DNA from: Clostridia bacterium
GTDB lineage: Bacteria; Bacillota; Clostridia; Oscillospirales; Acutalibacteraceae
Length of the DNA: 36,753 nt
Direction of reading: 5' to 3'
Assembly (NCBI GenBank): GCA_017380615.1
Contig: JAFODQ010000040.1
Location: 1 to 36,753 of the forward strand
Below are positions 1,917 through 28,801 of the stretch, piece after piece. The notes beneath the pieces are model-generated. The model did no database searches. It was not told the origin of the DNA and saw only the letters and a program-made list of their open reading frames with translations. Position 1 is the stretch's first letter. Each line of letters begins with the position of its first letter. Both the position numbers and the translations under genes were made by a program.

Positions 1917-3287
1917 ATGCTCAATTTTGAACAGGAAGCCAATGCATTGAAAAGCAAGGGCTTAACAGACGAAAATGTTATTAAAGCTCTTATTGATAAA
2001 AAAGAGCTTTCTCCATATATGCAAAAGCAGAGATTCCCTACCGAAATGTATGACAAGGTTAATCTTATGTGTCGGAATTATATGGACAGAATGGCAAGAT
2101 TCGAGGTTGACTATGACTTTGTAATAGACATCGAGAAATTCAAAAACACTGTCATCTGCTTTCTCGAATGTGCTCCATTTATGCATTCTCGGGTTATCAG
2201 CTCCCCTATTGCGCCATACTGGAAGGTGGCTGATTACCACATTGACGATATGATTAAGGTAGCCTTCGTTGAAGATATTGACACAGCCCGAGAGAATTTT
2301 TTCAAAAATTCAATTCCCTTAAAAAACAATGTTCAAATGCATATAGGAGTATTTATTTGCAACTCCCAAACATATATATGCTTTTACTGGAATCACATGT
2401 GCTTTGATGGTGGTGGCTTCAAAGCCTTTTGGGCAGATATCTGTAAAAATTACAGCAGATATGTGCAGGAGGGTATCCCCCCTATTGATTTCTCATCAGG
2501 CTCCCGAAGCTATAAAGATGTGTACAAGGATATGCCTCATGAGAAGCGTAAGAAAGCAATGAAGCAGCTTGCAAATATATCACCAAAAATCAAGCGCACA
2601 CTCCCCTTCACAAACGAAAAAACACTTGATGTTATAATCTCACACAGAGAAATCAGTGAAGAAAGCTTTACTAAAGCACTCTCTTATGCAAAAAGCATTG
2701 GTGCAACAGCAACAGATCTTGTGCTTGCAGCATATATCACTGCACTTAGTAAAGTGTCGCATCTCAAAGCAGATGATGAAATCAGCGTTGCATGTGCCAC
2801 TGATTTAAGAAGACACATCAAGGATTTATCCACAATCGGCTACACAAACCATGTTTCATTCATTCACTGCCACCTTCAGCACAAAGGAAATGACTTCAAA
2901 GAAACACTTAATCTCGTTGCCAAAAAGACGAAAGAGCTGAAGACGGACGAATTTATGGGTCTGCATGGCCTCCCCTTGCTAAACTTCGCGTACAAATCAA
3001 TGACCTATATTCAGGCAGAAACGCTTGTTAAGCTGTTTTACAACAACCCAATCTTATCAGTAAGCAATGTTGGTGCCATTGATACAGTTGCATTTTCAAT
3101 GGTAGGAAACAAGCCCTTCTCTGCATTTGTTGCAGGTGCTGCAAAAAATAAGCCTTGCGCTGTTATGACCTGTCTTAGTATTAACGGTATTTTCAAGGCA
3201 TCTATTTGCCTGAGAGGTACTCCGAGAGATAAAGAAATTCTTGAGGATTTCTTTACAGAATTCAAAAACACTATTGATAGCATATAA
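1917..3287 (+). CDS. Condensation-domain / acyltransferase-superfamily protein
   Basis: A 456-residue soluble protein. YWNHMCFDGGGFKAFW near residue 160 matches the HHxxxDG active site of the chloramphenicol-acetyltransferase-like superfamily (NRPS condensation domains, wax-ester synthases, alcohol acetyltransferases). The first His is Asn, but the catalytic His160 and Asp164 are kept. A later segment (LSVSNVGAIDTV, about residue 380) resembles the conserved region near the second half of the fold. The first ~45 residues form a short helical leader. ATG 1917 follows GAGGAA in the end of the GH3 gene, and the operon ends at the terminator at 3290-3321. The neighbour suggests it joins an acyl or aminoacyl group to an amine, alcohol or thiol; the acceptor is unknown. 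It could instead be an acyl-CoA-dependent O-acyltransferase. Confidence 0.7.
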   Translation: MLNFEQEANALKSKGLTDENVIKALIDKKELSPYMQKQRFPTEMYDKVNLMCRNYMDRMARFEVDYDFVIDIEKFKNTVICFLECAPFMHSRVISSPIAPYWKVADYHIDDMIKVAFVEDIDTARENFFKNSIPLKNNVQMHIGVFICNSQTYICFYWNHMCFDGGGFKAFWADICKNYSRYVQEGIPPIDFSSGSRSYKDVYKDMPHEKRKKAMKQLANISPKIKRTLPFTNEKTLDVIISHREISEESFTKALSYAKSIGATATDLVLAAYITALSKVSHLKADDEISVACATDLRRHIKDLSTIGYTNHVSFIHCHLQHKGNDFKETLNLVAKKTKELKTDEFMGLHGLPLLNFAYKSMTYIQAETLVKLFYNNPILSVSNVGAIDTVAFSMVGNKPFSAFVAGAAKNKPCAVMTCLSINGIFKASICLRGTPRDKEILEDFFTEFKNTIDSI

Positions 3288-4832: not shown

Positions 4833-7800
4833 TTAAAAGAAAGAAATCTGGTCACTATCAGGAAGGTCTCCGAATGCACCACAATACTTGAGGAGCTGAA
4901 CTGTAGATTTACCTGCGCCTGAACGGAACGCAAAATCTTCAATCGAAGAGAACTTACCTTCACCATCATCTCTTGCACTTACAAGCTGCTCTGCAGCTGC
5001 TGCACCGATACCGGCAAGAGATGCATATGGCATTCTGATTTTCTTTTTAATTGTCCCATCAGCTTCCTCAACCTCTTCAGGCTCGTAAGAAGCAGCTGAT
5101 GATTTATAAATATCAATCGGAAGGAATTCAATGCCACGAACCATCGCCTCATAAACAATCATCATAATTGTTTCTTTAGCTTTTTCAGCAGCTGATGCTT
5201 CCTTTCCCTTATTTCGAATCATGGCAAGAAGAGTTTTCACAGCTTCTTTACCCTTGCACATTGCCTCTGCATCAACATCATCACCACGAACAGTGAGATA
5301 TGCACAGTAATATTCAAGAGGATGATAAATCTTGAACCAAGCAAGACGAAGAGACGCAATGATATATGCAGCAGCATGTGCCTTAGGGAACATATACTGA
5401 ATTTTTTTACAAGAATCAATATACCACTCAGGGACACCGTGCTCACGCATCATAGCTTCCTGCTCAGGCTTAAGCTGTTTGTTCTTCTTACGGACATCCT
5501 CCATAATATCAAAGGCGTGCTTTGGCTCAAGACCCTTATGAAGAAGATAAACCATGATACTGTCTCTGGTACCAATAACCTCAGAAATTGTACATATGCC
5601 ATCTTTAATAAGATCCTGAGCATTACCAAGCCATACAGCAGTACCATGAGAAAGACCTGCGATCTGAATAAGGTCCGCAAAGCTTTGTGGTTTTGCTTCA
5701 AGAAGCATTCCCTTGGTGAAATCTGTTCCCATTTCAGGAATGGAAAGAGTACCTGTGGGCCAGCCCAACTCCTCCGCTGTTATACCAAGAGGCTCCGGAG
5801 AGGTACACAATTCATAAAGCTTTCTGTCACTGATATCAATATCAAGAACATCAATACCAGTAAGATCTGTAAGGTGCTTGTAAATCGTGGGAACATCATG
5901 GCCCAGCTCATCAAGCTTGAGAAGCGTATCGTGCATGGAGTTGAAATCAAAGTGAGTTGTGATGATATCCTTTGATTCATCCTCAGCAGGACGCTGAACA
6001 GGTGTGAAATCTTCAACCTCATAGGTATTAGGAACAACAACCATACCACCGGGATGCTGACCGGTTGTTCGCTTAACACCGGTGCATCCGATGGTGAGAC
6101 GATCTATTTCAGCCTTTGTTACACCGAGGTTTCTGTCCTCCACATATTTCCTCACAAAGCCGTAGGCTGTTTTATCTGCGATACCTGAAATTGTTCCTGC
6201 CTTGAAAACATAAGCCTTACCAAAAAGCTCTTCTGTATATTTATGAGATCTGCTCTGATATTCACCTGCGAAGTTAAGGTCAATATCAGGAGATTTGTCA
6301 CCAAAGAATCCCAGGAAGGTTTCAAATGGGATCTCGTGGCCATCTCTTATAAGAGGAGTGCCACACTCAGGACAATTCTTTGCAGGGAGGTCAAAGCCTG
6401 AGCCAACCTCATTGTGAAGGAAAAATTCGGAATATTTACACTGTGGGCAACGATAGTGTGGCTCAAGCGGGTTAACCTCAGAAATACCTGCCATAATGGC
6501 AACAAATGAGGAACCAACGGAGCCTCGGGAGCCAACATAATAACCACATTTTTCCGATTGTTTAACAAGAAGACGGGCAATCATATAAAGACCTGCGAAG
6601 CCATTTTTGATAATGGATTTAAGCTCCTTATCAAGACGGTTTGCAACAACCTCGGGAACGGGGTCACCATACCATTCCTTTGCTCGTTCCCAACAGAATT
6701 TTGTCAGGTCCTCCTCAGCACCTGGAATGATTGGGTTAAATGTGCCATCCGGAATGGGAAGAATTCCCGGCTCCACCATATCTGCAATAATATTTGTGTT
6801 GGTAATAACAACCTCTTTTGCAACATCTTCACCAAGATATGCGAAATCCTCAAGCATCTCCTCGGTAGTCTTAAGATAAAGTGGCGGCTGATAATCAGCA
6901 TCATCAAATTTCTGACCTGCCTGAAGGATTGCTCTGTATATAGCATCGTTTTTATCAAGGAAGTGAACATCACCGGTTGCAACAGTTTTCTTTCCGAGAC
7001 TATCGCCAAGGTGAATGATTCTTCTATTAATATCCTGAATATCCTCGTATGAATTTATGTTCTTGAATTTCTCTCTGTAGGCATCTCTCATACCTTCTTT
7101 ACGGAGCATATAAGCATTGTTTTCAACGGGCTGAATTTCAAGATAATCATAGAAGGATGCAATTTCCACAAGCCTTTCCTGAGGAGCTTCATCAACAAAA
7201 GCATCAAAAAGCTCACCCTCGGAACACGCACTGCCTATGATAAGACCCTCACGCATTTCGTGAATGAGGCTCTTGGGCATTCTTGGTTTTTTACGATAAT
7301 AATCAAGATTAGACTTTGAAATAAGCTTATAAAGATTCTTAAGACCTACCTTATTCTTTACAAGCAGAACACAATGGTAATATGGTGACGCTTTAATTTC
7401 ATCAATGGTTTTCTTCGTGCCATCAATATTAACATCATCCACAAGGTATGCTTCACAGCCATAGATAATCTTGAAATCTGTGCCTCTTGCAGTGTTGCAA
7501 GCCTCAGGGAAAGCCTGAACACAGCCGTGGTCTGTGATTGCAATTGCCTTGTGTCCCCACTTCATTGCTCTTTTAACAATGGATTTCGCGCTACTCATAG
7601 CGTCCATTGCAGACATATTGGTATGAAGATGAAGCTCAACACGCTTCTCCTCTGCCTCATCAACAAAATCCACCTTATTGATAAGTGAAACACTGGTAGG
7701 CTTAATTACATGATCCTTCATATAATCATCATAAATAACAGTACCACGCACGAGGACTGTGCAGCCCTCCTTAACCTTACCGTCAATATACTCAAGCTCT

Positions 7801-8591
7801 TCCTTAAGACCAAAGAATTTACATGTAAACGAGCCGGTATTATCTGTAATATTAAAATTGATTATGTAACGCTTGCCATCCTTGGTTTCACGCTTTTCGT
7901 ATTTGAAAACATCTCCCCAAACAATTACATCGCCACCATCAAAAGTAACATCTGACATTGCCTTGGGTTTTTCATATCTGAACTGTCCATAGATTGTTTT
8001 TACTGAACTGAAATCGAGAGGAACTCCCTCAAAGTTAGGGTTTTCCTCCGGTGGTTTAACAGGCTGATTAGCTCTGTCTATCTCCTTTTGCTTTTTGATA
8101 AATTCATCAGCATCGCTGTCCTTACCGGTGAGTTCAACCTGAATTTTTCTGTCAAAATGCTGAAGAACATATTCCTCAAGAAATCTGTCTGCCTTAGCAT
8201 TTGCGCAGATATCTCTGCCACTTTTAAGGAAATTGATTGTAAAAACATCATCAACAAAGCTTGTCTCAACATCATCAAGGAATCCGTTTGTCTGAGGCAC
8301 GCTCTTTTTAACAACCTTAAGAAGCATAGGAAAGCAGCTGTATGTAAGCTCCTCGGGAGGCAAAACAAATTCAAACTCCACCCTCTTCATCTTCAAGGAA
8401 AATTTAATTTCATTAGCAACAGCCTTGAGACACATGATATTTTCAAACTTATCAATGTGGAGAGTTGCTGTTATTGACTGCTCCTCTTTATTAATATTTA
8501 ATTCTGTAAAAAAAGTGTTTGAAAGCATTGAACGGTAACGCTCTGTTGCTATATATTCACCGAATATTTCCAGAAAATTATACAATTTCAT
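4833..8591 (-). CDS. polC: DNA polymerase III PolC-type alpha subunit, lacking the exonuclease domain
   Basis: The main Gram-positive replicative DNA polymerase, 1252 residues. Domains in order: N-terminal region 1-180; OB fold about 190-310; PHP domain from HLHTNM (321) to about 560; polymerase core with the zinc motif CPQC...CPEC and active site PDIDLNF; C-terminal clamp-binding tail DQISFF. PolC normally carries a 3'-5' exonuclease of about 170-180 residues inserted in the PHP domain after the (G)xEAxLVDD segment. Here EAYLVDDVNIDGT runs through about 20 residues straight into YYHCVLLVKN, so the exonuclease is absent and the protein is about 185 residues shorter than usual. The reading frame is uninterrupted, so this is not a frameshift. 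PHP ligands His321, His323, Asp354, His355, Glu380, His406, Cys456, Asp541 and His543 are all present. The start overlaps the ispG stop (ATGA), implying translational coupling. Confidence 0.97.
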   Translation of the reverse strand: MKLYNFLEIFGEYIATERYRSMLSNTFFTELNINKEEQSITATLHIDKFENIMCLKAVANEIKFSLKMKRVEFEFVLPPEELTYSCFPMLLKVVKKSVPQTNGFLDDVETSFVDDVFTINFLKSGRDICANAKADRFLEEYVLQHFDRKIQVELTGKDSDADEFIKKQKEIDRANQPVKPPEENPNFEGVPLDFSSVKTIYGQFRYEKPKAMSDVTFDGGDVIVWGDVFKYEKRETKDGKRYIINFNITDNTGSFTCKFFGLKEELEYIDGKVKEGCTVLVRGTVIYDDYMKDHVIKPTSVSLINKVDFVDEAEEKRVELHLHTNMSAMDAMSSAKSIVKRAMKWGHKAIAITDHGCVQAFPEACNTARGTDFKIIYGCEAYLVDDVNIDGTKKTIDEIKASPYYHCVLLVKNKVGLKNLYKLISKSNLDYYRKKPRMPKSLIHEMREGLIIGSACSEGELFDAFVDEAPQERLVEIASFYDYLEIQPVENNAYMLRKEGMRDAYREKFKNINSYEDIQDINRRIIHLGDSLGKKTVATGDVHFLDKNDAIYRAILQAGQKFDDADYQPPLYLKTTEEMLEDFAYLGEDVAKEVVITNTNIIADMVEPGILPIPDGTFNPIIPGAEEDLTKFCWERAKEWYGDPVPEVVANRLDKELKSIIKNGFAGLYMIARLLVKQSEKCGYYVGSRGSVGSSFVAIMAGISEVNPLEPHYRCPQCKYSEFFLHNEVGSGFDLPAKNCPECGTPLIRDGHEIPFETFLGFFGDKSPDIDLNFAGEYQSRSHKYTEELFGKAYVFKAGTISGIADKTAYGFVRKYVEDRNLGVTKAEIDRLTIGCTGVKRTTGQHPGGMVVVPNTYEVEDFTPVQRPAEDESKDIITTHFDFNSMHDTLLKLDELGHDVPTIYKHLTDLTGIDVLDIDISDRKLYELCTSPEPLGITAEELGWPTGTLSIPEMGTDFTKGMLLEAKPQSFADLIQIAGLSHGTAVWLGNAQDLIKDGICTISEVIGTRDSIMVYLLHKGLEPKHAFDIMEDVRKKNKQLKPEQEAMMREHGVPEWYIDSCKKIQYMFPKAHAAAYIIASLRLAWFKIYHPLEYYCAYLTVRGDDVDAEAMCKGKEAVKTLLAMIRNKGKEASAAEKAKETIMMIVYEAMVRGIEFLPIDIYKSSAASYEPEEVEEADGTIKKKIRMPYASLAGIGAAAAEQLVSARDDGEGKFSSIEDFAFRSGAGKSTVQLLKYCGAFGDLPDSDQISFF

Positions 8592-9646
8592 ATTTTATCT
8601 ATCTCGTCAAGCAACGCCTTGACAATTTCCGTTTCAGGAACCTTTCGTAATATTTCGCCTTTCCGGAAGATTACGCCACATCCATCGCCACCTGCGACAC
8701 CGATATCTGCCTCACGGGCTTCTCCCGGACCATTAACCACACAACCCATAACAGCGATTTTAATGGGTTTTCTTATATTCTTTACTGATTCTTCAACCTG
8801 ATTTGCAAGTGAAACCAAGTCTATTTTTGTTCTTCCGCAAGTCGGACATGCAACAATCTGTGGTGTCTCAACTCTTAAATTTACAGCGTTGAGTATATCT
8901 CGCGCTGCAGCAATTTCTTTAACGGGAGAATCGGTTATTGAGACACGGAGAGTATCACCGATTCCTTTAATGAGAAGTGAGCCTATTCCGATTGAGGATT
9001 TTATGAGAGAGCTTCTCTCTGTGCCTGCTTCTGTTACGCCGAGGTGAAGAGGATAATCACATCTTTCTGCAACAAGACTATATGACTTCACCATATTTTC
9101 AACATCGGAGGATTTGATTGAAATGATTGTGTCATAAAAACCACAAGCTTCAAGCATTGCAACATGACGGAATGCACTTTCTACCATTGCCTCGGGAGTT
9201 GCTCCACCAAATTTTTCAAGAAGTTCCTTTTCGACCGAACCGGAATTGACACCGATTCTTATGGGTACTCCTTTAAGGGCACAGGCATCAGCCACAGCTG
9301 CTACTCTTTCCTGTGAACCGATGTTGCCCGGATTGATACGGATTTTGTCAACTCCTGCCTGAAGACTTTCAAGAGCAAGCTTGTAATCAAAGTGGATATC
9401 TGCAACAAGTGGAATATTTGCGTTTTCCTTGAGCTTTCCAAGAACAGCAACAGCCTTCATGTCAGGCACAGCCATTCGAACAATTTCACAGCCTGCAGCC
9501 TCAAGCTCCTTAAGCTGCTTGAGATTTGCACTGAAATCATCTGCAGGTGCATTAAGCATCGATTGAATAGCAATTGGTGCATCTCCACCGATTTTTACAT
9601 TTCCGACATTTACTTGTCTTGTAATTCGTCTAATCATTTTAATCAC
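8588..9646 (-). CDS. ispG: 4-hydroxy-3-methylbut-2-en-1-yl diphosphate synthase
   Basis: The penultimate enzyme of the MEP isoprenoid pathway, converting MEcPP to HMBPP. It is 352 residues, the normal size for the short bacterial form without an insert. The TIM-barrel start RQVNVGNVKIGGDAPIAIQS and the [4Fe-4S] ligands in ACPTCGRT and MGCVVNGPGEA (three Cys plus Glu) are present. GTG 9646 overlaps the rseP stop as GTGA. An in-frame ATG at 9637 (MIRRITRQ, closer to the usual family N-terminus, with GGTGA five bases upstream) is an equally good start. The C-terminus overlaps polC by four bases. It lies in the same operon as dxr, another enzyme of the pathway. Confidence 0.97.
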   Translation of the reverse strand: MIKMIRRITRQVNVGNVKIGGDAPIAIQSMLNAPADDFSANLKQLKELEAAGCEIVRMAVPDMKAVAVLGKLKENANIPLVADIHFDYKLALESLQAGVDKIRINPGNIGSQERVAAVADACALKGVPIRIGVNSGSVEKELLEKFGGATPEAMVESAFRHVAMLEACGFYDTIISIKSSDVENMVKSYSLVAERCDYPLHLGVTEAGTERSSLIKSSIGIGSLLIKGIGDTLRVSITDSPVKEIAAARDILNAVNLRVETPQIVACPTCGRTKIDLVSLANQVEESVKNIRKPIKIAVMGCVVNGPGEAREADIGVAGGDGCGVIFRKGEILRKVPETEIVKALLDEIDKI

Positions 9647-10710
9647 CGAAATTGTTTTATTATATCACTGATTGTTACCACAGCCATAAAGCCGAGAAGC
9701 AACACAAGACCCACTGTATGAATTTTACCTTCCTTTTCTGCGGGAATTGGCTTTCTTCTTATCATCTCAATAAGGAGGAAGAAGAGTCTGCCACCATCAA
9801 GTGCAGGGAACGGAAGAAGATTAAACACGCCAACATTGATTGTAATTATCGAAAGGAAATTCAATGCTGTGAGAATTTTATCCTTAAAGCTTTCAGGCTC
9901 TGCTGTTGACTCGGCAATTGCTGATATCGTGCCGATGGGACCTGAAACATCTTTCATTCCGTATTTGCCGGTTACTAAATCCACAAGGCTTAACCTTACC
10001 ATCTGAACAATGGATGCAGATTCAAGGAAAGAGTTTTTTAAAACATTGGAAAAGTTAGGCTCTTCACCAAGAATTTTGAAATCTTGAGAAATATATTGCC
10101 TACCTTCAAACTCAAACTGTTGGAACTCAACATCCTTTAATTCAACCTTCTCACCATTGCGGCGCACAACCATATCGATTTTATTATCTCTGTCACGGAC
10201 AAGGTTAAATGGAATTCCTCTGAAGGAATAAACAGGTGTATCATTGATTTTAAGAATTTCATCATCAACCTGAAGTCCGCTAGCCTGACTTGTTGCATTC
10301 TCATCAAATCGTACAACCGTGCGTGTTCCTACAAGCTCACTTGAAGAAAGACAAATCGAAACAACCACGAGACCTAAAATAAGATTAAGAATTGCACCAG
10401 CAGCAATGATAATAAAGCGTTGCCATGCAGGCTTTTTGTTAAAGGCGTGGGCATCATCACTATCTTCATCCTCACCTTCCATGCTTACAAAGCCACCAAT
10501 AGGAAGCAGACGAACAGAATAAACAGTGTCACCCTTCTTTTTTGAGAAGAGCTTAGGACCCATCCCTAATGCAAATTCATTAACCTTAACCTTAAAAAGC
10601 TTTGCGAAGAAGAAATGACCAAATTCGTGAATACCCACAATCACGCCAAAAAGAAAAATGGCTAAAAGATAGGGCCAAACACTGCTCCAAATAGATAAAA
10701 ATGTGCTCAA
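9643..10710 (-). CDS. rseP: RIP metalloprotease RseP (site-2 protease, M50)
   Basis: A 355-residue intramembrane zinc protease. The first membrane helix carries GVIVGIHEFGHFFFAK (HExxH), and a later helix carries NLLPFPALDGGR with the third zinc ligand Asp. Between them lies one PDZ domain (about residues 130-200, SQASGLQVDDEILKIND). At least four hydrophobic segments are visible. Known relatives cleave anti-sigma factors and leftover signal peptides within the membrane. The start is TTG 10710, with GGTGGTG about eight bases upstream; no better ATG precedes the HEFGH helix. It sits between dxr and ispG, the usual Firmicutes order. Confidence 0.95.
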   Translation of the reverse strand: MSTFLSIWSSVWPYLLAIFLFGVIVGIHEFGHFFFAKLFKVKVNEFALGMGPKLFSKKKGDTVYSVRLLPIGGFVSMEGEDEDSDDAHAFNKKPAWQRFIIIAAGAILNLILGLVVVSICLSSSELVGTRTVVRFDENATSQASGLQVDDEILKINDTPVYSFRGIPFNLVRDRDNKIDMVVRRNGEKVELKDVEFQQFEFEGRQYISQDFKILGEEPNFSNVLKNSFLESASIVQMVRLSLVDLVTGKYGMKDVSGPIGTISAIAESTAEPESFKDKILTALNFLSIITINVGVFNLLPFPALDGGRLFFLLIEMIRRKPIPAEKEGKIHTVGLVLLLGFMAVVTISDIIKQFR

Positions 10711-10737
10711 TACGGTTACACCACCAAAATAATATAA

Positions 10738-11886
10738 TCAGATTTTTGCCAATTTACGGACTATTTCCCTCATAAATGAGTCTGTATTATAAACATCCTC
10801 TAAACTATAATCCTGCTTATCATTCAGCTCCTCGGCTGCTTCAGCTATGAGACGAGGGATATCAAGGAAAGAGATTTTCCCTTGTCTGAAGAGAAGATTG
10901 GCTTCTTCGTTAGCACAATTGACAGCTGCAGGATAAAGTCCACCCTTACGAATAGCAGCACGGCATATGTCCATGCAAGGAAATGTTTCATAATCAGGCT
11001 TATAGAAGCTAAGTTTTCCAATCTCCCACAAATCCAACTGCTTTTCAGGAGACGGATACCTTTCAGGATATGTTATTGCGAACTGAATGGGAAGCCGCAT
11101 ATCGGGATGACCAAGCTGCGCAATAACTGAATTATCATCATACTCAATAAGAGAATGAACAATGCTTTCTCTGTGAACAACAATATCAATCATATCTGCA
11201 GATACATCGAAAAGCCACACTGCCTCAATAAGTTCAAGACCCTTATTAAACATTGTCGCGCTGTCTATTGTGATTTTCTGTCCCATTGACCAGCTTGGGT
11301 GCTTGAGTGCATCTGAAAGGGTCACCTTTTCAAGCTCCTCTTTTGTTTTACCGAAGAAAGGTCCACCTGATGCAGTGAGGATAATTCTTTTAAGGGCCTT
11401 GTTAGATGGTGCACCAAGCAGACACTGAAAAATTGCAGAATGCTCACTATCCACAGGAAGAATTGAAACGCCATTCTTCTTTGCAGCATTTGTTACAAGC
11501 TTACCACCTGCAACAAGTGTTTCCTTATTGGCAAGGGCTATTGTTTTGCCTGCACCAATAGCATCAAGAGTGGGCTTAAGACCTGCCATTCCCACAACAG
11601 CATTAAGAGTGATTTCACCCTTACCCTCACTTGCACAGAAGCAAACGCCCTCCATACCGCTGAGCACCTTCACAGGCAAATCGCTTACCCTTACCTTAAG
11701 GTCCGCCGCTGCCTTTTCGTCCACAAGAGCTGCATATTGTGGTCTGAATTCTCGTATCTGATTTTCGATTATATCAACATTAGAATAGGCTGTAAGGGCT
11801 TCGATTTTATAGCCATGCTCTCTAGCAACATCAAGAGTCTGCACACCGATTGAGCCTGTGGAGCCTAAAAGATTTATAGTTTTCAT
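10738..11886 (-). CDS. dxr: 1-deoxy-D-xylulose-5-phosphate reductoisomerase
   Basis: The NADPH-dependent first committed step of the MEP pathway, DXP to MEP. NADPH-binding GSTGSIGVQT is at the N-terminus, followed by ALANKETLVAGGK, the metal- and substrate-binding PVDSEHSAIFQC, ASGGPF and ATMFNKGLELIEA, all typical of the family. The protein is 382 residues from ATG 11886. That start is chosen because GAGAG lies five bases upstream and homologues begin MKxINLLGSTGS. A TTG at 11898 in the same frame overlaps the cdsA stop and would add four residues. Fosmidomycin-type inhibitors target this family. Confidence 0.97.
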   Translation of the reverse strand: MKTINLLGSTGSIGVQTLDVAREHGYKIEALTAYSNVDIIENQIREFRPQYAALVDEKAAADLKVRVSDLPVKVLSGMEGVCFCASEGKGEITLNAVVGMAGLKPTLDAIGAGKTIALANKETLVAGGKLVTNAAKKNGVSILPVDSEHSAIFQCLLGAPSNKALKRIILTASGGPFFGKTKEELEKVTLSDALKHPSWSMGQKITIDSATMFNKGLELIEAVWLFDVSADMIDIVVHRESIVHSLIEYDDNSVIAQLGHPDMRLPIQFAITYPERYPSPEKQLDLWEIGKLSFYKPDYETFPCMDICRAAIRKGGLYPAAVNCANEEANLLFRQGKISFLDIPRLIAEAAEELNDKQDYSLEDVYNTDSFMREIVRKLAKI

Positions 11887-11894
11887 AATTTCTC

Positions 11895-12728
11895 TCAATC
11901 CATAAGATTTATTGCAGCGTAAAGGACAGGCATAACAAACAAAACACTGTCGAATCTATCCATTATTCCACCATGACCAGGCAGAAGCTTACCGAAATCC
12001 TTGACACCGAAGTTTCTTTTAATTGTGGAGGCTGCAAGGTCGCCACACATACTTACAACGGATAATATAATGCTGAGAATAACTATACCGACATAGGACA
12101 GGCTGCTTTCTCCTTCAAAAACATAATTTTTAAAGATGAATAATAACAACACGTTAAGTAATGCTGCACCAACAATACCACCAATAGCACCTTCAACAGA
12201 TTTCTTGGGGCTGATTTTGGGACAGAGCTTGTGTTTACCAAGCTTACTTCCAACGAAATACGCAAATATATCTGTCATCCAGGAAGCAAAGAAAACAAAG
12301 ATGATAAGAAAGACACCATCCATTTTTGTCAAGCCTTCAATATGCTTATGTACATCTCTGAAATATATCATTAAAGAAAACGAGAACGGCACACAAGCAG
12401 AGGCGAAAATCGCAATAACGGTCTGCTCAAATCTTGTGCTCTCGAATTTTATAAGCATAAACACAAGAAGAAGAACAACATATACACAGCCTATTGCTGC
12501 AAAAGGTACCTTGATTCCAAAATGAAAGACAAAGGGTATTATTGCAGAAAAAACCATACTTGCTGCCATTATCAGCTTATTTGTAAGCCCTGTTGCCCTT
12601 TCAATCTCCCACACTGCAATGCACGAAAGAAGTGAAACAAACACAGGGAAAACAATTGTGTTCATAAGAAGAAGCGCACCAATAAATACTATTCCAAATA
12701 AAAGTGCTGTTATAACTCTCTGCTTCAT
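11895..12728 (-). CDS. cdsA: Phosphatidate cytidylyltransferase
   Basis: An integral membrane enzyme making CDP-diacylglycerol from phosphatidate and CTP, the branch point of phospholipid synthesis. About eight hydrophobic segments are visible, and the C-terminal CDP-alcohol signature reads KDFGKLLPGHGGIMDRFDSV. The length (277 residues) is normal. ATG 12728 is preferred over ATG 12740 because GGAGAT, which lies inside the longer version, sits six bases before it, and MKQRVITALLFG is the usual N-terminus. It follows uppS after a short gap holding a hairpin. Confidence 0.95.
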   Translation of the reverse strand: MKQRVITALLFGIVFIGALLLMNTIVFPVFVSLLSCIAVWEIERATGLTNKLIMAASMVFSAIIPFVFHFGIKVPFAAIGCVYVVLLLVFMLIKFESTRFEQTVIAIFASACVPFSFSLMIYFRDVHKHIEGLTKMDGVFLIIFVFFASWMTDIFAYFVGSKLGKHKLCPKISPKKSVEGAIGGIVGAALLNVLLLFIFKNYVFEGESSLSYVGIVILSIILSVVSMCGDLAASTIKRNFGVKDFGKLLPGHGGIMDRFDSVLFVMPVLYAAINLMD

Positions 12729-12750
12729 AATTATCTCCATTAGCCCGGAA

Positions 12751-12774
12751 AAGCGTATCCTGAAAGATACGCTT
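12751..12774 (-). other. Intercistronic hairpin between uppS and cdsA
   Basis: A perfect 9-bp inverted repeat (AAGCGTATC, 6-base loop, GATACGCTT) lies in the uppS-cdsA gap. On the transcribed strand only TTTT follows the stem before CCGGG, so it is a poor terminator. It more likely slows reading, partly attenuates, or protects mRNA ends inside the operon. Confidence 0.5.
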
Positions 12775-12787
12775 AACCCACACTTAA

Positions 12788-13519
12788 TTATACTCCGCCA
12801 AAACGACGGTTACGTTTTTGAAAATCATTAATAATATCGTTAACATTTTCCTCTGTGAAATCAGGCCACAGAACATCTGAAAACCAGAACTCTGAATAAG
12901 CCGACTGCCACTGCAGAAAATTTGACAATCTGAACTCGCCACTTGGACGAACAATAATGTCAGGGTCAGGTTGACCCGCCGTGTAGATATTATCACTTAT
13001 GGTTTGCTCTGAAATTTCATCTATTAAAATTTCGCCCTTCTGCACCTTGGAGACAATCTCCTTGACAGCATGGGTAATTTCGGCTCTGCCACCGTAATTA
13101 AGAGCAACGTTAACTGTTATCTTACTATATTTTTTAGATTTACGTTCAGCCTTTTCAATAAGCTTTATCAAATCCTGAGGAAGTCCTTCTCTTTCACCGA
13201 TAAAACGTATCCGTGACTGACGAATATCGTTCTCACGCTCTCTGTCATCTGCTTCAAGAAGGTATTCCTTAAAAATCTTCATAAGTGCCTGAACTTCATT
13301 TTTGGGTCTGTTCCAGTTTTCTGTGGAAAAGGCATAGAAGGTAACATACTTTATGCCGATATCGGCACAATACTCCGTTATCCTCCTGAAGGTTTTGGCA
13401 CCTGCCTTATGACCCTCGCTCCGTTCGAGGCCACGCTGCTTCGCCCATCTGCCATTGCCATCCATAATGAATGCAATGTGCTGTGGCAAAACATCGAAAT
13501 GAGGTAAATTATTACTCAT
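12788..13519 (-). CDS. uppS: Undecaprenyl diphosphate synthase (isoprenyl transferase)
   Basis: A cis-prenyltransferase that extends farnesyl diphosphate to the C55 carrier lipid used in cell-wall synthesis. It is 243 residues. The signature HIAFIMDGNGRWAKQRG includes catalytic Asp20. FYAFSTENWNRP and the C-terminal IVRPSGEFRLSNFLQWQSAY (diphosphate-binding Arg/Ser) are present. The start ATG 13519 is two bases after the frr stop, and the SD must lie within the end of frr. With dxr and ispG it places precursor supply and carrier-lipid synthesis in one operon. Confidence 0.97.
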   Translation of the reverse strand: MSNNLPHFDVLPQHIAFIMDGNGRWAKQRGLERSEGHKAGAKTFRRITEYCADIGIKYVTFYAFSTENWNRPKNEVQALMKIFKEYLLEADDRERENDIRQSRIRFIGEREGLPQDLIKLIEKAERKSKKYSKITVNVALNYGGRAEITHAVKEIVSKVQKGEILIDEISEQTISDNIYTAGQPDPDIIVRPSGEFRLSNFLQWQSAYSEFWFSDVLWPDFTEENVNDIINDFQKRNRRFGGV

Positions 13520-13521
13520 AA

Positions 13522-14076
13522 TCAGATTTCCATTATTTCCTGAGTCTTTGATGCTGCGATCTCTTCAACCTTTTTGATGTACTCATCAGTGATTTTCTGA
13601 ATTTTCTCTTCAGCAAACTTCTGGTCATCTTCTGTGATTTCTGAGTTCTTCTTCATTGCCTTAATCTTATCAATGCAATCTCTTCTGATGTTACGAACGC
13701 CAACCTTTGCATCCTCAGCATACTGAGAAACTTCCTTTGAAATCTGCTTTCTGCGCTCTTCTGTGAGTGCAGGGAAAACAAGACGGATTACTCTGCCATC
13801 GTTTGATGGATTAATACCGATATCTGATGCCTGAATAGCCTTTTCAATAAGAGAAAGAGTTGATGCATCCCATGGCTGAATCGCGAGAATTCTTGCCTCA
13901 GGAACAGAAACTGCTGCCATCTGATTGATTGGTGTAGGGCAACCGTAATAGTCAACCTGAACCTTATCGAGAACAGCTGCATTTGCACGACCTGCTCTGA
14001 TTGAGTTGTATTCATACTTAAGTGATGAGATTGTTTTCTCCATTTTTTCTTTTGCTAAATTGAATACTGATTCCAT
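13522..14076 (-). CDS. frr: Ribosome recycling factor
   Basis: A 184-residue factor that splits post-termination ribosomes together with EF-G. The SIRAGRANAAVLDKVQVDYY motif, the AVSVPEARILAIQPWD segment and the long C-terminal helix with NIRRDCIDKIKAMKK are diagnostic. Length is standard. ATG 14076 is preceded by GGAGGAT at good spacing. It follows pyrH by 32 bases, the usual gene order in Firmicutes. Confidence 0.98.
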   Translation of the reverse strand: MESVFNLAKEKMEKTISSLKYEYNSIRAGRANAAVLDKVQVDYYGCPTPINQMAAVSVPEARILAIQPWDASTLSLIEKAIQASDIGINPSNDGRVIRLVFPALTEERRKQISKEVSQYAEDAKVGVRNIRRDCIDKIKAMKKNSEITEDDQKFAEEKIQKITDEYIKKVEEIAASKTQEIMEI

Positions 14077-14108
14077 AGATAAATCCTCCGTATATGTAAA
14101 TTTAATTT

Positions 14109-14819
14109 TTATGAATTTGTTACAACAGTACCTGCATTTTCACCACAGACAGCTCTGTTGATATTTTCCGGGTCATTGAGATTGAAAACAAGAATAGGGA
14201 TGTTGTTTTCCTGACAAATTGCTGCTGCAGCTGTGTCCATAACTGCAAGATGTCTTTCGAGAAGCTCGTTGTGAGTTATTCTGTCAAACTTAACAGCATC
14301 GTTGAACTTATTTGGGTCCTTATCATAGATGCCATCAACATTGGTTGCTTTAAGATAAACATCTGCACCAATCTGTGCTGCCCTGAGTGCTGCACCTGAA
14401 TCTGTTGAGAAAAACGGGTTACCTGTACCACCTGCGAAAATAACCACTCTGCCTTTTTCAAGGTGAGAAACAGCCTTATCCCTCATGAAGGTTTCAACAA
14501 CACCTGTTATCTGCACAGCAGACATTACCCTTGCTTCAACACCGATATCGAGAAAGCCCTGCTGCAAAGCAAGTGAGTTCATAACTGTGGCAAGCATACC
14601 AATGCTGTCTGCTCTTGTGCGGTCCATAGCACCACTGCTGCGTCCTCTCCAGAAATTACCACCACCAACAACAATACCAACCTGAACACCCTTGTCAGTG
14701 ATCTTTTTAACAGCACAGCAAACTTCGTTTACAACATTGAAATCAAAGCCGTGACCAGCCTCGCCTGCAAGAACCTCTCCACTGATTTTTAATAGAAGTC
14801 GTTTATAAACGGGTTCCAT
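14109..14819 (-). CDS. pyrH: UMP kinase
   Basis: Bacterial uridylate kinase (amino acid kinase fold, 236 residues), converting UMP to UDP with ATP. LLKISGEVLAG at the N-terminus, VVGGGNFWRGR, MDRTRADSIGMLATVMNSLA and FAGGTGNPFFSTDSGAALRA are the family motifs. ATG 14819 has AAAGGGGA upstream. It is the first gene of the long operon, with a promoter at 14866-14894. The genes that usually precede it in Firmicutes, rpsB and tsf, are not here; spo0A lies upstream instead. Confidence 0.98.
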   Translation of the reverse strand: MEPVYKRLLLKISGEVLAGEAGHGFDFNVVNEVCCAVKKITDKGVQVGIVVGGGNFWRGRSSGAMDRTRADSIGMLATVMNSLALQQGFLDIGVEARVMSAVQITGVVETFMRDKAVSHLEKGRVVIFAGGTGNPFFSTDSGAALRAAQIGADVYLKATNVDGIYDKDPNKFNDAVKFDRITHNELLERHLAVMDTAAAAICQENNIPILVFNLNDPENINRAVCGENAGTVVTNS

Positions 14820-14981: not shown

Positions 14982-15746
14982 TTATGATGCATATCGTTTA
15001 AGACGGATTCTGTCTGAAATCATTGCAACAAACTCTGAATTTGTTGGTTTACCTCGTTGACTCTGGATGGTATAACCGAAATACGAGTTAAGCACATCCA
15101 CATCGCCTCTGTCCCAGGCAACCTCAATCGCGTGACGTATTGCTCTTTCAACACGAGAGGATGTACTCTGGAAGCTTTTTGCTACTGTGGGATAAAGAAT
15201 TTTTGTTACTGAATTAAGCATTTCAGGGTTTTCAACAGTAAGACGGATTGCCTCACGGACATATTGATATCCTTTAATGTGAGCAGGAACACCTATCTGA
15301 TGAAGAATTTCTGTTATAACAACATTCAAATCTTTTTTAACCTCATAGCTTGAAGGTGTGTTAATGCCCTTCCAGCTTGAAATCTGCACAATTCTTTCTG
15401 CCATATTCTGTGCATCAAAGGGCTTAAGGAAGAAATAATCAACTCCACAGCGAGTCAATTCTCTTTCAAAATTGGGGTTATCAATACCGGATGTTACTAT
15501 AATCAAAGGTCTTTTAACAGGATCGGACATATTTATTCTTGATATAACACCCATTGCATCAATGTGCTGAAGGAAGGCATCCATAATGATAACATCGGGA
15601 TGTTCTTCTTCAAAAATGTGCAGCAATTCCGCACCATTTTTGGCGCAAAGCTTAACATTCATCTTGTTTGCACGAAGCACCTCAGCCAGCTTGCGACTTG
15701 CTTCGTCTTTTTCATCTGTTAACAGTACAGATAAATTTCCTATCAT
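14982..15746 (-). CDS. spo0A: Sporulation transcription factor Spo0A
   Basis: The master response regulator of sporulation, 254 residues. The N-terminal receiver has the acidic pair Asp11/Glu12, phospho-acceptor Asp56 (VIIMDAF), Thr85 and Lys108 (FFLKPF). The C-terminal Spo0A DNA-binding domain runs from about residue 140 (ITEILHQIGVPAHIKGYQY) and includes the recognition region SFQSTSSRVERAIRHAIEVA. The domain is specific to endospore-formers, so the organism is of that lineage. ATG 15746 follows AGGAGGAA, a very strong ribosome binding site. The gene is monocistronic here, with its own promoter and terminator; spoIVB, often next to it in Clostridia, is not adjacent. Candidate 0A boxes lie upstream, which would allow autoregulation. 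Confidence 0.97.
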   Translation of the reverse strand: MIGNLSVLLTDEKDEASRKLAEVLRANKMNVKLCAKNGAELLHIFEEEHPDVIIMDAFLQHIDAMGVISRINMSDPVKRPLIIVTSGIDNPNFERELTRCGVDYFFLKPFDAQNMAERIVQISSWKGINTPSSYEVKKDLNVVITEILHQIGVPAHIKGYQYVREAIRLTVENPEMLNSVTKILYPTVAKSFQSTSSRVERAIRHAIEVAWDRGDVDVLNSYFGYTIQSQRGKPTNSEFVAMISDRIRLKRYAS

Positions 15747-21928: not shown

Positions 21929-24900
21929 ATAGTTTAATAAACTTTTCAAGCTTGAAGGAATAAATGTATTTCTCTTTCACAGGAATTCCTGTACACTTGA
22001 ATATCGCCTCTGAATAAATCTCAAGCTGTGGTGTATAGATATCTGCAAAGGTTTTCTCATCAGAAATATTATCAGTTTTATAGTCGATGAGCACGAAGCC
22101 ATCGTCCTCACGGAAGGCACAATCCAGCATACCCTGAACAAAAATATCCTCATCTGCAATTTCAGGTGAAGCATTTTCATACAGCTCCCCTGCCTTCTTA
22201 ATGAACGCAAAGGTATATTCTCTGTGAACTTCTTTTGATTTCAGAAGGCGCTGACCCACAGCTGACTCAAAGAAGCTGTTCACAGCCTTATCATCAAGAG
22301 AAGCTATTTCCTTAAGAGAAAGCTCGCCTGTGTCAACAAGACGTTTTTTCTCAGCAGCAATATCTGTTCTTGCATTCTCAAAATCACAAAGCTCAAAAAA
22401 TTTGTGAATAGCAGTACCTCTTTGAGCACCGGTGAATTCTTCACCCATAAATCGTGGCTTTCTTCTCGCAAAATATTTCCTGCCCTCTCTGTGCTTTTCC
22501 GTGGCAGAAGCAACAACCTTTGCAAGGACGCCACTGCAATCATAAGTGTATGCAAACCCTGTTTTTCCCCTCAAAGCAGCAAGAGCTGCTTCATCAACGG
22601 ATGCTGCTACCTCCTCATTTAAGGAATCATCAGCCATACAAACATCAACTGCCGGACTCTCGCTGACTCTGTATGCATTCACACTGTGCTTATAATCTCT
22701 TATGTTACACAGCTGACGGGTTATATTGCAATCATCCTGCTGAGAAAAACAAGTGAGAAGCCACTCACCCATTGACCTGGACTTATACACAGCAAACGGG
22801 TGCAGCTTACCCTCCTTATCAAAGCCAAGATAATTATTGAGTTTTATCTTCTTTGCAACGCCATCTCTTGATCTGAGCGAGCAAACAAAAAGTATATGCT
22901 CCTTTGCTCGTGTAGCTGCAACATACAATACACGAAGTGCCTCGGAGGCACCTCCATATAGAATATCCTTTTCAACAGCAACAGAAGACAAGGTGTTATA
23001 GGTTGTGAAAAGACTATCATCTCTTATTTTAAGACCGATACCTGTTTCACGGGATATCTTCAATGTTTTGTAAGCATCCTGCCTATTGAAGCCTGATGAA
23101 CAATCTCCCACAATAACATAAGGAAACTCAAGACCCTTGCTCTTGTGAATCGACATAATCTGAACGCCCGCCGGCACAGACATTCCACCATATGCACGAA
23201 GCTTTCCTGATTCTGCAGCATTATCCACGCTGCGTACAAATGCACTAAGACCTGCACGGCCACTCTGAGTAAAGCTGTCTGCAAGCTCAACAAAACCACG
23301 GATATTTGCCTGTCTTGCTGTACCATCCGTGCCCGCAAGAAAGATATTTGAAATATCAGTATCCTTAACAATAAATCTGACAAAATCATTTATCGGGTAT
23401 GTTGCTGCTATGTTTCTGTATAGCTGAAGCTTGTTTATAAAGTTTTTAGCTTTTTCTGATGTTTTGGCATAATCCTCCAGACAGATATATAAATCGCTGT
23501 ATCTGTCATTCACACGAAGCTGTGCAAGCTCATCTGCCGTGAAGCCGAATAACGGAGAAAACAAAACAGACAACAGTGCAATATCCTCCAACGGGTTATT
23601 AACAACCTTAACGAGAGCTAAAAGCAGCTGAATCTCGCGAGAAGCACTCACATCACCATCAAGCACAGTGTTTGCTGAAATGCCCACATCCTTGAGAGCC
23701 TCTGAAAAAACATACGCTTTATCCTTCATGCTTCGAAGGAGAATGCACACATCAGAGCTTTCAATAGGTCTGAGCCCTTGCTTGGTGCTCACCATAACAC
23801 CCGAAGAAAGCAAATTCTTTATATATACTGCAATCTGCTCTGCTTCAAGTGCAATCGCATCTGCCGACTTATACTCCGAATAATCGAGGCACATAAGACC
23901 AACATCCGGTGTATTTTTTTCAGGATAAGTAGCTCCACAGACCAGATACTCCTTTTCATTATAATCAATTTCTCCGACCTGCTCACTCATAAGAGTTTTA
24001 AAAAGATGGTTTGTCACCTGTGTGACACCGTTTCTGCTTCTGAAATTCTTATCAAGAGTTATCTGCGAGGGATGTATGATGCCATCGTAATCAGGAAGAT
24101 TCTTCTTCAATTCCATGAACAGCTGTGGACTTGCAAGACGGAACTTATAAATACTTTGTTTAACATCGCCAACGCAGTAAAGATTTTCACGATTTCTGGA
24201 TATGGCTTCGAAAATTATATTCTGTGCCTGGTTTGTATCCTGATATTCATCAATAAAAATCTCTTTATATTTTCCTTGAAGATTTTTGGCAATATCCGTT
24301 CTTTCCCATGAACCACCCTTAAACTCCACAAGAAGATTGATTGCCTTATGAAGAATGTCATCAAAGGAATATGCATTTCTTTCATTTTTGATTTCGGTGA
24401 GTGCTTTTTCGAGTCTCTTCACAGCCTCACAAAGCTTCACAATCATTGGATAAAGCTTTTTACAATCCTCTTGGTGCTCCTTGGTTGTGGGAAGGTCGAG
24501 ACCGACGATTGAATCAAGATCCGACCTGAACTCCTTGAATGAATCAGCAGCTATGTCCTTTATATAGTTATCAACCTTGCTGTTTCTCGCATCAGGCATA
24601 GAACACAAGCCCTCACGGATGAGCGATACCATACCGTCCCAGTTTCTCTGCTCTGCACAACTCTTAAGATTAAGAAGGTTTTCTCCTGAAAGCCTGAATC
24701 TTTCATAAAAAGCAGGACTGAAGCCACCCGACTCATCAAGCATGGAAATAACTCGCATAAAGCGTTTATAATGATAATCAGCAAACAATAAAATGTGCTT
24801 ATAAATAACATCTGCCCACAAAGTATCATTAGGCTCATTTTCACCCGAGAAGGCTTCCACAAGTGAATCAAGCCACAGCTCAGGTGATGGATATGAACGG

Positions 24901-25448
24901 GAATATTTATACAAATCTCTGATTATATCCGTAAGTTTTCCGTCATCTCTTTCGTTTATGAGCATTGATGTGAGCTGAATAAAGCCTTCATCATTCTCCT
25001 CATAAAGAGTATCAACAACCTCATTCATTGCCACAGCTGTGATTTCTTCAAGTTCTTTTTCATCAAGAAGAGCGAAATCGAGAGGAACCTGAGCTCTGCT
25101 GAAATTCTCCTTAACAAGCTTAGAACAGAAGGAGTCCATTGTGCAGATATCTGCAAGAGGAAGCAAGGATAACTGCTCGCGAAGGTGATCAGAAGACGGA
25201 TCTTCATTTGAGGCAATCTTCAGAGCCTTGTAAATTCTGTCTTTCATTTCCCCTGCTGCTGCACGGGTAAAGGTTACGACAAGAATATCGGAAACGGAGC
25301 AGGTGTCCGTTTTATCGGTAAGAATCCTCTTTACACGCTCTGTGAGAACAGCTGTTTTTCCTGAGCCAGCAGCTGCAGAAACAAGCACCTGCATCCCCCT
25401 TGCTTTAAAAGCCTTTTCCTGATTCGGTGTCCATTCTGTTTTACTCAT
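21927..25448 (-). CDS. addA: ATP-dependent helicase/nuclease subunit A
   Basis: The UvrD-like helicase and nuclease of the AddAB complex, which resects double-strand breaks and hands ends to RecA. It is 1173 residues, within the family range. Walker A VSAAAGSGKTAVL is near the N-terminus. Helicase motif II is FIDEYQDTNQAQ, then CVGDVKQSIYKFR, SIHKSKGLEFPYVIVGD and VLYVAATRAKEH. The C-terminal RecB-type nuclease has VLIDYKTDN, with catalytic Asp and Lys. ATG 25448 is chosen because it overlaps the addB stop by eight bases and has GGGAGGTGA inside the end of addB. A longer frame reaching 25496 lacks a ribosome binding site. Confidence 0.96.
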   Translation of the reverse strand: MSKTEWTPNQEKAFKARGMQVLVSAAAGSGKTAVLTERVKRILTDKTDTCSVSDILVVTFTRAAAGEMKDRIYKALKIASNEDPSSDHLREQLSLLPLADICTMDSFCSKLVKENFSRAQVPLDFALLDEKELEEITAVAMNEVVDTLYEENDEGFIQLTSMLINERDDGKLTDIIRDLYKYSRSYPSPELWLDSLVEAFSGENEPNDTLWADVIYKHILLFADYHYKRFMRVISMLDESGGFSPAFYERFRLSGENLLNLKSCAEQRNWDGMVSLIREGLCSMPDARNSKVDNYIKDIAADSFKEFRSDLDSIVGLDLPTTKEHQEDCKKLYPMIVKLCEAVKRLEKALTEIKNERNAYSFDDILHKAINLLVEFKGGSWERTDIAKNLQGKYKEIFIDEYQDTNQAQNIIFEAISRNRENLYCVGDVKQSIYKFRLASPQLFMELKKNLPDYDGIIHPSQITLDKNFRSRNGVTQVTNHLFKTLMSEQVGEIDYNEKEYLVCGATYPEKNTPDVGLMCLDYSEYKSADAIALEAEQIAVYIKNLLSSGVMVSTKQGLRPIESSDVCILLRSMKDKAYVFSEALKDVGISANTVLDGDVSASREIQLLLALVKVVNNPLEDIALLSVLFSPLFGFTADELAQLRVNDRYSDLYICLEDYAKTSEKAKNFINKLQLYRNIAATYPINDFVRFIVKDTDISNIFLAGTDGTARQANIRGFVELADSFTQSGRAGLSAFVRSVDNAAESGKLRAYGGMSVPAGVQIMSIHKSKGLEFPYVIVGDCSSGFNRQDAYKTLKISRETGIGLKIRDDSLFTTYNTLSSVAVEKDILYGGASEALRVLYVAATRAKEHILFVCSLRSRDGVAKKIKLNNYLGFDKEGKLHPFAVYKSRSMGEWLLTCFSQQDDCNITRQLCNIRDYKHSVNAYRVSESPAVDVCMADDSLNEEVAASVDEAALAALRGKTGFAYTYDCSGVLAKVVASATEKHREGRKYFARRKPRFMGEEFTGAQRGTAIHKFFELCDFENARTDIAAEKKRLVDTGELSLKEIASLDDKAVNSFFESAVGQRLLKSKEVHREYTFAFIKKAGELYENASPEIADEDIFVQGMLDCAFREDDGFVLIDYKTDNISDEKTFADIYTPQLEIYSEAIFKCTGIPVKEKYIYSFKLEKFIKL

Positions 25449-28400: not shown

Positions 28401-28773
28401 CGCGACAGAAATCAACAAGCGGAGAAAGAGCTGTAATGCCATATTTCCGGCTATTAAACACATTGATTCTACCAGCGAGTGAATCTATTGCTTCGCTCAT
28501 AAGCACGCCACGAACACCATCATTTGCAAAATTCTTATCAAACCCAGGCGTTCCTTTAAGACTATGGAAAGCTAATCTCTTAAAACTAAGAAATTCAACA
28601 TTCTTGAATTTTTTCGCACCATAGGTTTTAAGAAAGCTACGGTCAGTTTCAAAAGAAAACTGTTCGGGAACAATAAGCAGAGGCTTATTGTCAGGATTGG
28701 ATTTTTCACAAAGCTTGTTATGCAGCATTTTAGTCTTGCCACAGCCTGCTCTACCCTTAATTAAATGAAGCAT
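25441..28773 (-). CDS. addB: ATP-dependent helicase/nuclease subunit B
   Basis: The partner subunit of AddA, 1110 residues. LIKGRAGCGKTKML (Walker A) is at the N-terminus. Unlike AddA, the classical helicase motifs are degenerate, as expected. The C-terminal nuclease has RVVDYKTGKKE. A four-Cys iron-sulfur cluster is visible: one Cys in AYYNCPFSYFL and three in MCKYCSYVSVCGYE, as in other AddB proteins. ATG 28773 is chosen over GTG 28785 because GGAGGG sits just before it and MLHLIKGRAG matches the family start. It overlaps addA and starts the operon; its promoter is at about 28802. Confidence 0.95.
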   Translation of the reverse strand: MLHLIKGRAGCGKTKMLHNKLCEKSNPDNKPLLIVPEQFSFETDRSFLKTYGAKKFKNVEFLSFKRLAFHSLKGTPGFDKNFANDGVRGVLMSEAIDSLAGRINVFNSRKYGITALSPLVDFCRELKYCCISGDELQEKTQLLEDGFLKEKLQDIFLINEAYDALVKQSYFDDTDAVSLLCDVAREKGIFKNRSVFFDGFRAFSRQQAECFSIILSQAQDVYVSLCLDENSGKNTPFYFIKEFENQIRTIANECSCVVDETYCFSDENKFSSDILQLEKYIFTDKKPSPSETNGSVKIARCVDVDDECRFVACEIKKLLRSGEYRCKDIAVIERSSGKYKDTLVQELKALDIPVFEDSRRSLKYEALFVYLNSALACISTGLKTENILMYLKSGLSGLSIEEISLLEKYALVWNIGGAAWRDGFTMHPDGFGKAIDERAQKKLEVINDARKRVVAPLLKLKKDCEDKTGDEITRLVFEFLDNHHIQEKLYDLHVELKESGFPVEAHRQEASWDMLVSLLDEMAVLGNGKYMTLSRWYELFSILTDSGEIGEIPQGLDEIRIGSADRIRTEQIKVAFLVGVNKDEFPLVSVKEGVLTDSDRVRLTQLGLLVRPPYKDGVGEEQFIAYCALTSATEKLYLSYRSVDADGAEVYPSEIIDSAKALIADIEEVSTAEMDPFEAIESDEQAFSLLARNFRFNNSIRSTLLEYFSHKPEFEGRINSLQSVCGDRAYRISDIDKSEQLFGKDMFLSASRIEAYYNCPFSYFLRYGMRAEPLRVAELDPAQGGTIIHLVMEHILQKYPRGDFLSTDSVTLKCDVEAVLTDYIENKMGGKENKSSRFIFLFNHLVETCMAVIERLKNEFSVGSFEPCGFEVSIGDEVPSYEIPLERGRVCVKGSIDRVDMMEKDGIRYLRVVDYKTGKKEFKLCELFDGLNIQMVLYLMSLEKNGKDIYGDIVPAGVLYLPSRIGISDYLKKRSPEAEEISKQKTVSGKLSGMLLESLVVLNGMGAIDSPLYFPASFDSVKDKFTGNTFSQAQFKLLSKMIDGKIKNMGDSLHRGEIPAIPCGTDNKGKMCKYCSYVSVCGYEAGDPIIEMSDFSHNKALEMLGGEGDE

Positions 28774-28801
28774 AAAACCCTCCACACAAATTTATAAATA
28801 A

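Follow-up and report, generated by a model that had tools for sequence, protein, structure and literature searches.

The PolC encoded in the window (by which we mean the whole stretch of 36,753 nucleotides analyzed) is a further member of the published group of PolCs that lack the embedded DEDD exonuclease, here called exo-less, and it comes from uncultured gut Clostridia. On the sequence, we confirm that the absence is real. The domain has seemingly been lost on many occasions, in bacteria whose PolC retains a second possible site of proofreading. Replication fidelity is most probably maintained by PHP sites in both PolC and DnaE1, together with mismatch repair. As far as the literature was searched, the count of repeated independent losses, a genome with no RNase_T match, and the failure of a universal replacement acting in trans are apparently new.

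Identity and layout of the window PolC

The window PolC scores 1413 bits against NCBIfam NF001688 (cut-off 873) and 1287 bits against TIGR01405 (cut-off 1043). Its alignment to the Geobacillus PolC 3f2b covers residues 212-1252, and the best aligned stretch with the Enterococcus PolC 9qpc is residues 399-1252, but unlike these canonical PolCs it has no DEDDh domain. Pfam finds a single unbroken PHP domain at residues 319-487. An OB fold N-terminal to PHP is a feature by which PolC is recognized, and the window protein has it, whereas DnaE, the other C-family branch, has its OB domain at the C-terminal side according to the available part of PMC3919608. The polymerase core motifs are PDIDLNF at residue 769 and LLKLDELGHD at residue 891. 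The protein ends in QISFF, which by its sequence we take to be the likely beta-clamp binding motif. Coordinates are collected in Table 1.

Table 1. Features of the window PolC, its upstream genes, and the standalone exonuclease of the same genome
Feature	Position	Strand	Basis
PolC, 1252 aa (intact 1252-codon frame)	4833..8591	minus	ORF and family profiles
QISFF, C-terminal end of PolC	4836..4850	minus	
Helix-hairpin-helix (HhH) region, residues 1153-1243	4863..5135	minus	PF14579
Polymerase core and fingers	5448..6710	minus	PF07733, PF17657
PHP region, residues 319-544, nine metal ligands all intact	6960..7637	minus	
17-residue linker, residues 388-404, at the exonuclease insert site of other PolCs	7380..7430	minus	
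OB fold, residues 238-290, N-terminal to PHP	7722..7880	minus	PF01336
Upstream series pyrH-frr-uppS-cdsA-dxr-rseP-ispG	8588..14819	minus	Pfam families
Standalone DEDDh exonuclease, PolC-like type, 206 aa	L001:1399-2019 (G000 contig C84)		

The names of the upstream genes are inferred from Pfam families. Since polC lies behind this pyrH-to-ispG series of housekeeping genes, we regard it as the normal chromosomal polC, outside any mobile element. The closest named relatives of the protein are mostly from metagenome-assembled Clostridia and Oscillospiraceae, several of them labelled as water buffalo, deer, goat, or sheep gut. One clostridial PolC of the window's genus (L034, 82% identical) is labelled Prevotella, probably a mislabelled or contaminated assembly.

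Absence of the embedded exonuclease

A DEDDh exonuclease inserted in PHP is the usual hallmark of PolC, and the window protein does not have it. The flanking segments EAYLVDD and YYHCVLLVKN are residues 381-387 and 405-414. The earlier note, made from the letters of the DNA, had estimated that about 20 residues join them, which is correct within a few (there are 17), and the linker lies inside the interval it had marked. A Pfam search finds no RNase_T domain in the window PolC. Against a profile of the embedded exonucleases of 74 clostridial PolCs, the protein scores 3.8 bits (E = 0.76), with no significant match anywhere in it, and the highest score that any window frame reaches is 4.7 bits (E = 0.4), which is noise. 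The claim that no exonuclease is to be found in the 1252 residues is thus upheld by both searches, and a diverged but present domain, which by the note would have refuted the claim, does not rise above noise in any frame. The lack of a significant match within the protein also rules out that the exonuclease moved elsewhere in PolC; relocation is further countered by residues 4-389 aligning with the N-terminal part of the exo-bearing PolC of genome G023.

The profile separates the two kinds of PolC widely, with at least 253 bits in 74 of 74 exo-bearing PolCs and at most 9.9 bits in 45 exo-less ones, a set that includes two fragments (L021, L026) not reaching the junction. The length from EAYLVDD to the end of YYHCVLLVKN is likewise two-peaked, 22-48 versus 206-233 residues. 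These lengths come from 99 distinct PolCs, left from 116 loci after collapsing identical sequences, with values of 22-41 or 206-233 (two fragments gave none); further rows extended the short loops to 48, and their long loops, where printed, were 218-226. The profile scores and the two-peaked lengths together bear out the claim of a real domain absence.

The window's genome (G000) is a fragmented assembly of 1.97 Mb in 119 contigs, 91% complete, and the note had allowed that collapse of an in-frame 500-bp segment might have produced the short PolC. The polC gene is present in all 22 genomes of the genus that were searched, G000 included, and the junction reads uninterrupted in 21 of them, 16 in one frame of 1238-1255 aa and 5 in contig fragments extending across it. 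In the 22nd, G004, the match was limited to residues 597-1252. The same 34-residue stretch is found in all 18 genus rows reaching the junction, and exo-less PolC also occurs in genomes of other lineages assembled in one or three contigs (G399, G208). With a junction common to so many assemblies, collapse is almost certainly not the explanation.

Relation to published PolCs

The earlier note assumed that known PolCs all carry the insert. That premise is mistaken, as exo-less PolC was published in 2013. In the sections of PMC3919608 (Timinskas 2013) available, 86% of PolCs are like B. subtilis PolC and 6% lack Exo, the latter all from Clostridia and Negativicutes except for an additional copy in Thermotogae; apparently no PolC+DnaE1 system had been experimentally characterized at the time of writing. 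The exo-less PolC described there has the same architecture as the window PolC, with OB N-terminal and PHP without the Exo insert, and it is the variant of PolC+DnaE1 genomes, of which the window's genome is likewise one. We see no difference in kind from what those sections describe, the comparison being by description and not by individual sequences. Later work on natural exo-less PolC was not recognized in the open-licence literature, preprints being outside that scope. In excerpts of PMC11963600, a criterion of an RNase_T insert kept 620 of 1,158 proteins, and screens that define PolC in this way would miss the exo-less enzymes.

What we add is a count. We sampled the class evenly, requesting genomes of at least 97% completeness, and obtained 146; a PolC match is present in 137, and PolC is exo-less in at least 19 of these, the window's genome included. 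Fourteen of the 19 were checked on the sequence, and the other five (G305, G359, G361, G375, G388) are assigned from how they align, from the length of the frame, and from a congener that was checked. Most of the remaining 118 are taken as exo-bearing from a match that breaks near residue 390 and a long frame, and because they were not all checked individually, a few being contig fragments, 19 is a lower bound. In 5 genomes (G356, G386, G350, G360, G401), the alignment runs uninterrupted from before residue 350, yet the PolC is exo-bearing on its sequence, so an uninterrupted alignment alone is no proof of absence.

Probable repeated loss

To place the exo-less enzymes, we use PolC trees built without the exonuclease columns, which are unrooted quick searches that omit fragments and near relatives of rows already included. 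The minimum number of changes in exonuclease state is 8, 10, and 12 on trees of 95, 85, and 99 rows, respectively, and the changes forced by well-supported branches are 8, 7, and 8. Instead of grouping together, exo-less PolCs sit nested within exo-bearing ones at many separate points. The window's genus is part of a wider clade with 17 exo-less rows out of 18; the sister of this clade, G023, is exo-bearing. Clearly separate are G214, whose sister G220 is exo-bearing; genus g42 of family f19, next to exo-bearing g53; and L049/L051, next to exo-bearing L060. We interpret these changes as losses, since PolCs with the Exo insert are the common form in the literature. The nesting, found on all three trees, leads us to reject an ancestral exonuclease-free PolC, which the earlier note had offered as the alternative to domain loss.

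Two rows stand out on their own. The PolC of G214 (L206) has a 48-residue loop containing CxxC, and its absence of the exonuclease is perhaps a recent loss. The exo-bearing L063 falls, not firmly placed, among exo-less rows, a position that may reflect several losses or a regain.

Candidate replacement exonucleases

The earlier note asked how this lineage proofreads and suggested a search for a separate DnaQ-like exonuclease. The question is a fair one, and the search does turn up a candidate: at E up to 1, G000 has a single RNase_T match, the 206-aa standalone DEDDh protein on contig C84, with the motifs DLETTG, HNVLFD, and HRALSD intact. This protein is patchy in the genus, however, and its role in replication is only putative. 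If it proofread PolC in trans, as epsilon does for E. coli DnaE, one would expect a standalone exonuclease wherever PolC is exo-less, and the 206-aa type is in 9 of the 22 genus genomes. It is absent from G011, G013, G016, G018, and G019, each at least 95% complete, G013 carrying instead another RNase_T protein of 528 aa.

The bolder form of this proposal, that the protein is PolC's own excised domain, draws on its 14 best matches outside the genus, which are PolC-embedded exonucleases at 35-43% identity. The exonuclease domain tree gives it no support: none of the solo clades pairs with the embedded exonucleases of its family as a sister group, with the limit that one solo clade (G037, G146, G208, G214) shares an unresolved fork with most embedded domains. 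The tree holds 76 domains, 29 of them solo including E. coli DnaQ, with 29 of the 74 embedded exonucleases left out as close relatives, and its backbone is weak. One of the solo exonucleases, that of G256 (L176), has a C-terminal stretch resembling a BRCT domain by eye.

Solo exonucleases accompany exo-less PolC in genus g5 of family f2 (5 of 5 genomes) and genus g42 of f19 (3 of 3), which speaks for action in trans, but they occur in exo-bearing genomes too. We searched 26 exo-less genomes for RNase_T-family proteins at E up to 10, four of them (G064, G092, G115, G157) counted as exo-less by lack of an embedded exonuclease match. Some standalone DnaQ-like protein is present in 17, G000 included. 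In eight, a protein of about 300 aa, which from its sequence we take to be KapD/ERI1-like, is the sole DnaQ-like gene (seven confirmed as KapD-like, and G019 judged from frame and matched range). The last, G190, is 99% complete in 70 contigs and gave no match to the RNase_T family even at this threshold. The permissive threshold matters, as the solo exonuclease of G208 was found at E = 10 and missed at E = 1 × 10−12, and zeros at the latter were not relied on. With nine of the 26 genomes having no RNase_T protein or a KapD-like one alone, we consider proofreading in trans by a separate DEDDh exonuclease to be unlikely. In G190, the KapD-like protein is also absent, and its PolC piece (L212) is at a contig end.

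The KapD/ERI1-like protein itself is a very improbable substitute. Of the family's genomes searched, 14 of 18 exo-less ones encode it, but so do 19 of 20 exo-bearing ones (G114 lacks it), so it does not track exonuclease loss, and it is absent from exo-less G000, G008, G024, and G190. On this distribution, we reject it. A dedicated replacement that would explain the loss does not appear among these candidates.

PHP sites of PolC and DnaE1

In the part of PMC5636811 available, the PHP exonuclease site of Mtb DnaE1 is formed by nine residues, one of which is mutated in Gka PolC, a protein that shows no exonuclease activity; the same PHP loop is where the PolC DEDD exonuclease is inserted, and it has 18 residues in Taq, 29 in Mtb, and 9 in E. 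coli. The nine ligands that mark PHP-exonuclease polymerases are all in the window PolC as H322, H324, D331, H356, E381, H407, C457, D542, and H544, and the activity itself is predicted. Its short PHP loop and nine intact ligands are as in the DnaE1s with PHP exonuclease (Mtb, Taq), whereas D542 is Asn in Geobacillus 3f2b and Enterococcus 9qpc. The 3f2b construct, according to excerpts of PMC12592400, had its exonuclease deleted, and the same text identifies 9qpc as the PolC of Enterococcus faecium. The deletion was made for crystallization; 9qpc has its exonuclease.

The ligand pattern HHDHEHCDH is found in 54 of 54 exo-less PolCs (the fragments L021 and L026, which do not reach the site, are left out of the ligand counts) and in 84 of 85 exo-bearing ones, the 85th row being truncated before the first five ligands. 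Exo-bearing clostridial PolCs conserve these ligands to the same degree, so their conservation is no distinguishing mark of the exo-less enzymes, and it may be structural. DnaE1 was found in 30 of 30 genomes searched, on contig C40 in G000, and the nine ligands are intact in all 30, 21 of them from exo-less genomes. These counts would fit a rule that the DEDDh domain is lost only where PHP is complete, with the contrast to the Bacilli based on two solved structures and what is available of PMC12926913, not on a census. Among the matches listed, dnaE1 and polC are about 2.7 kb apart in four genomes of family f19 (G042, G075, G101, G060).

How fidelity may be kept

The reading that we favor, and consider probable, can be put as follows. 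The window PolC is the ordinary orthologous chromosomal PolC of its lineage, from which the embedded DEDDh exonuclease was cleanly lost, leaving a short DnaE-like PHP loop. By sequence, the polymerase core, OB fold, HhH, and likely clamp motif remain and, with these kept, it should still be a working replicative polymerase. Polymerization without Exo is plausible, since an engineered PolC minus its N-terminal and Exo parts was used for kinetics (PMC3656037, in the sections available). Clostridial PolC works beside DnaE1, and in both the PHP metal site has all nine ligands, a type of site reported as a 3′-5′ exonuclease in Mycobacterium and Thermus DnaE. With PHP as a second proofreader and MutS-type mismatch repair, for which genes are found in 28 of 28 genomes searched, the DEDDh domain would be dispensable, and this would be why it was lost repeatedly. 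The two PolCs examined from the Bacilli each have a changed PHP ligand, so in that group DEDDh presumably could not be spared.

The sequences themselves establish that the domain is missing and that this recurs, that the PHP ligands are intact, that DnaE1 and MutS are there, and that exonucleases able to act in trans are patchy. From these we infer that exo-less PolC is a working replicase, that the PHP of PolC or of DnaE1 proofreads, and that this redundancy makes the loss tolerable. The intact PHP sites of the two polymerases make a more general candidate than the 206-aa exonuclease. Against the PHP reading stands that the DnaQ-like protein of the 17 genomes mentioned above could act in trans.

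It is also conceivable, if rather less likely, that exo-less PolC is a subordinate polymerase, with DnaE1 doing most of the synthesis and proofreading by its own PHP so that the fidelity of PolC matters little. PMC3919608, in the text available, raises this possibility for PolC+DnaE1 genomes. DnaE1 is intact with its full PHP site, and in family f10 none of the 10 genomes sampled has a PolC match at E ≤ 1 × 10−100 among the matches listed. On the other side, PolC keeps its operon place and catalytic motifs, and the window PolC shares 59-83% identity with the 15 other full-length PolCs in its genus; it is therefore under constraint. The f10 genomes may rely on DnaE1 alone.

Returning to the PHP sites, a stronger version is offered tentatively, as somewhat doubtful. 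It says that several clostridial lineages, at least one of them represented by the 99%-complete genome in which no RNase_T gene was found, replicate with two C-family polymerases proofread by PHP alone, that the PHP of PolC is active, and that PHP and DEDDh are interchangeable in that a lineage can lose one or the other but not the two together. Naturally exo-less PolCs whose PHP site is complete are clean test material for this, above all those from genomes with no detectable DnaQ-like protein. With the embedded DEDDh absent, any mismatch excision by such an enzyme cannot come from it.

Substitution rates and neighboring genes

A raised substitution rate was considered as a trace of lost proofreading. 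The median root-to-tip distance is 0.72 in exo-less versus 0.53 in exo-bearing genomes for PolC (n = 21 and 9) and 1.06 versus 0.79 for DnaE1 (n = 21 and 7), the rows in both cases not being independent. In a wider sample, the unrelated IspG gives 1.35 versus 1.33 (n = 20 and 22), which is no difference, and PolC 1.16 versus 1.08 (P = 0.13), which is little.

Elsewhere in the window, positions 222-1910 on the plus strand encode a GH3-family protein (PF03321, E = 2.9 × 10−69), a family best known from plant hormone conjugation, and after it a condensation-domain match below cut-off lies at 1917-3284. A Spo0A-type regulator is at 14985-15746, and an AddA/AddB-type helicase-nuclease pair is encoded at 21930-28785 on the minus strand.
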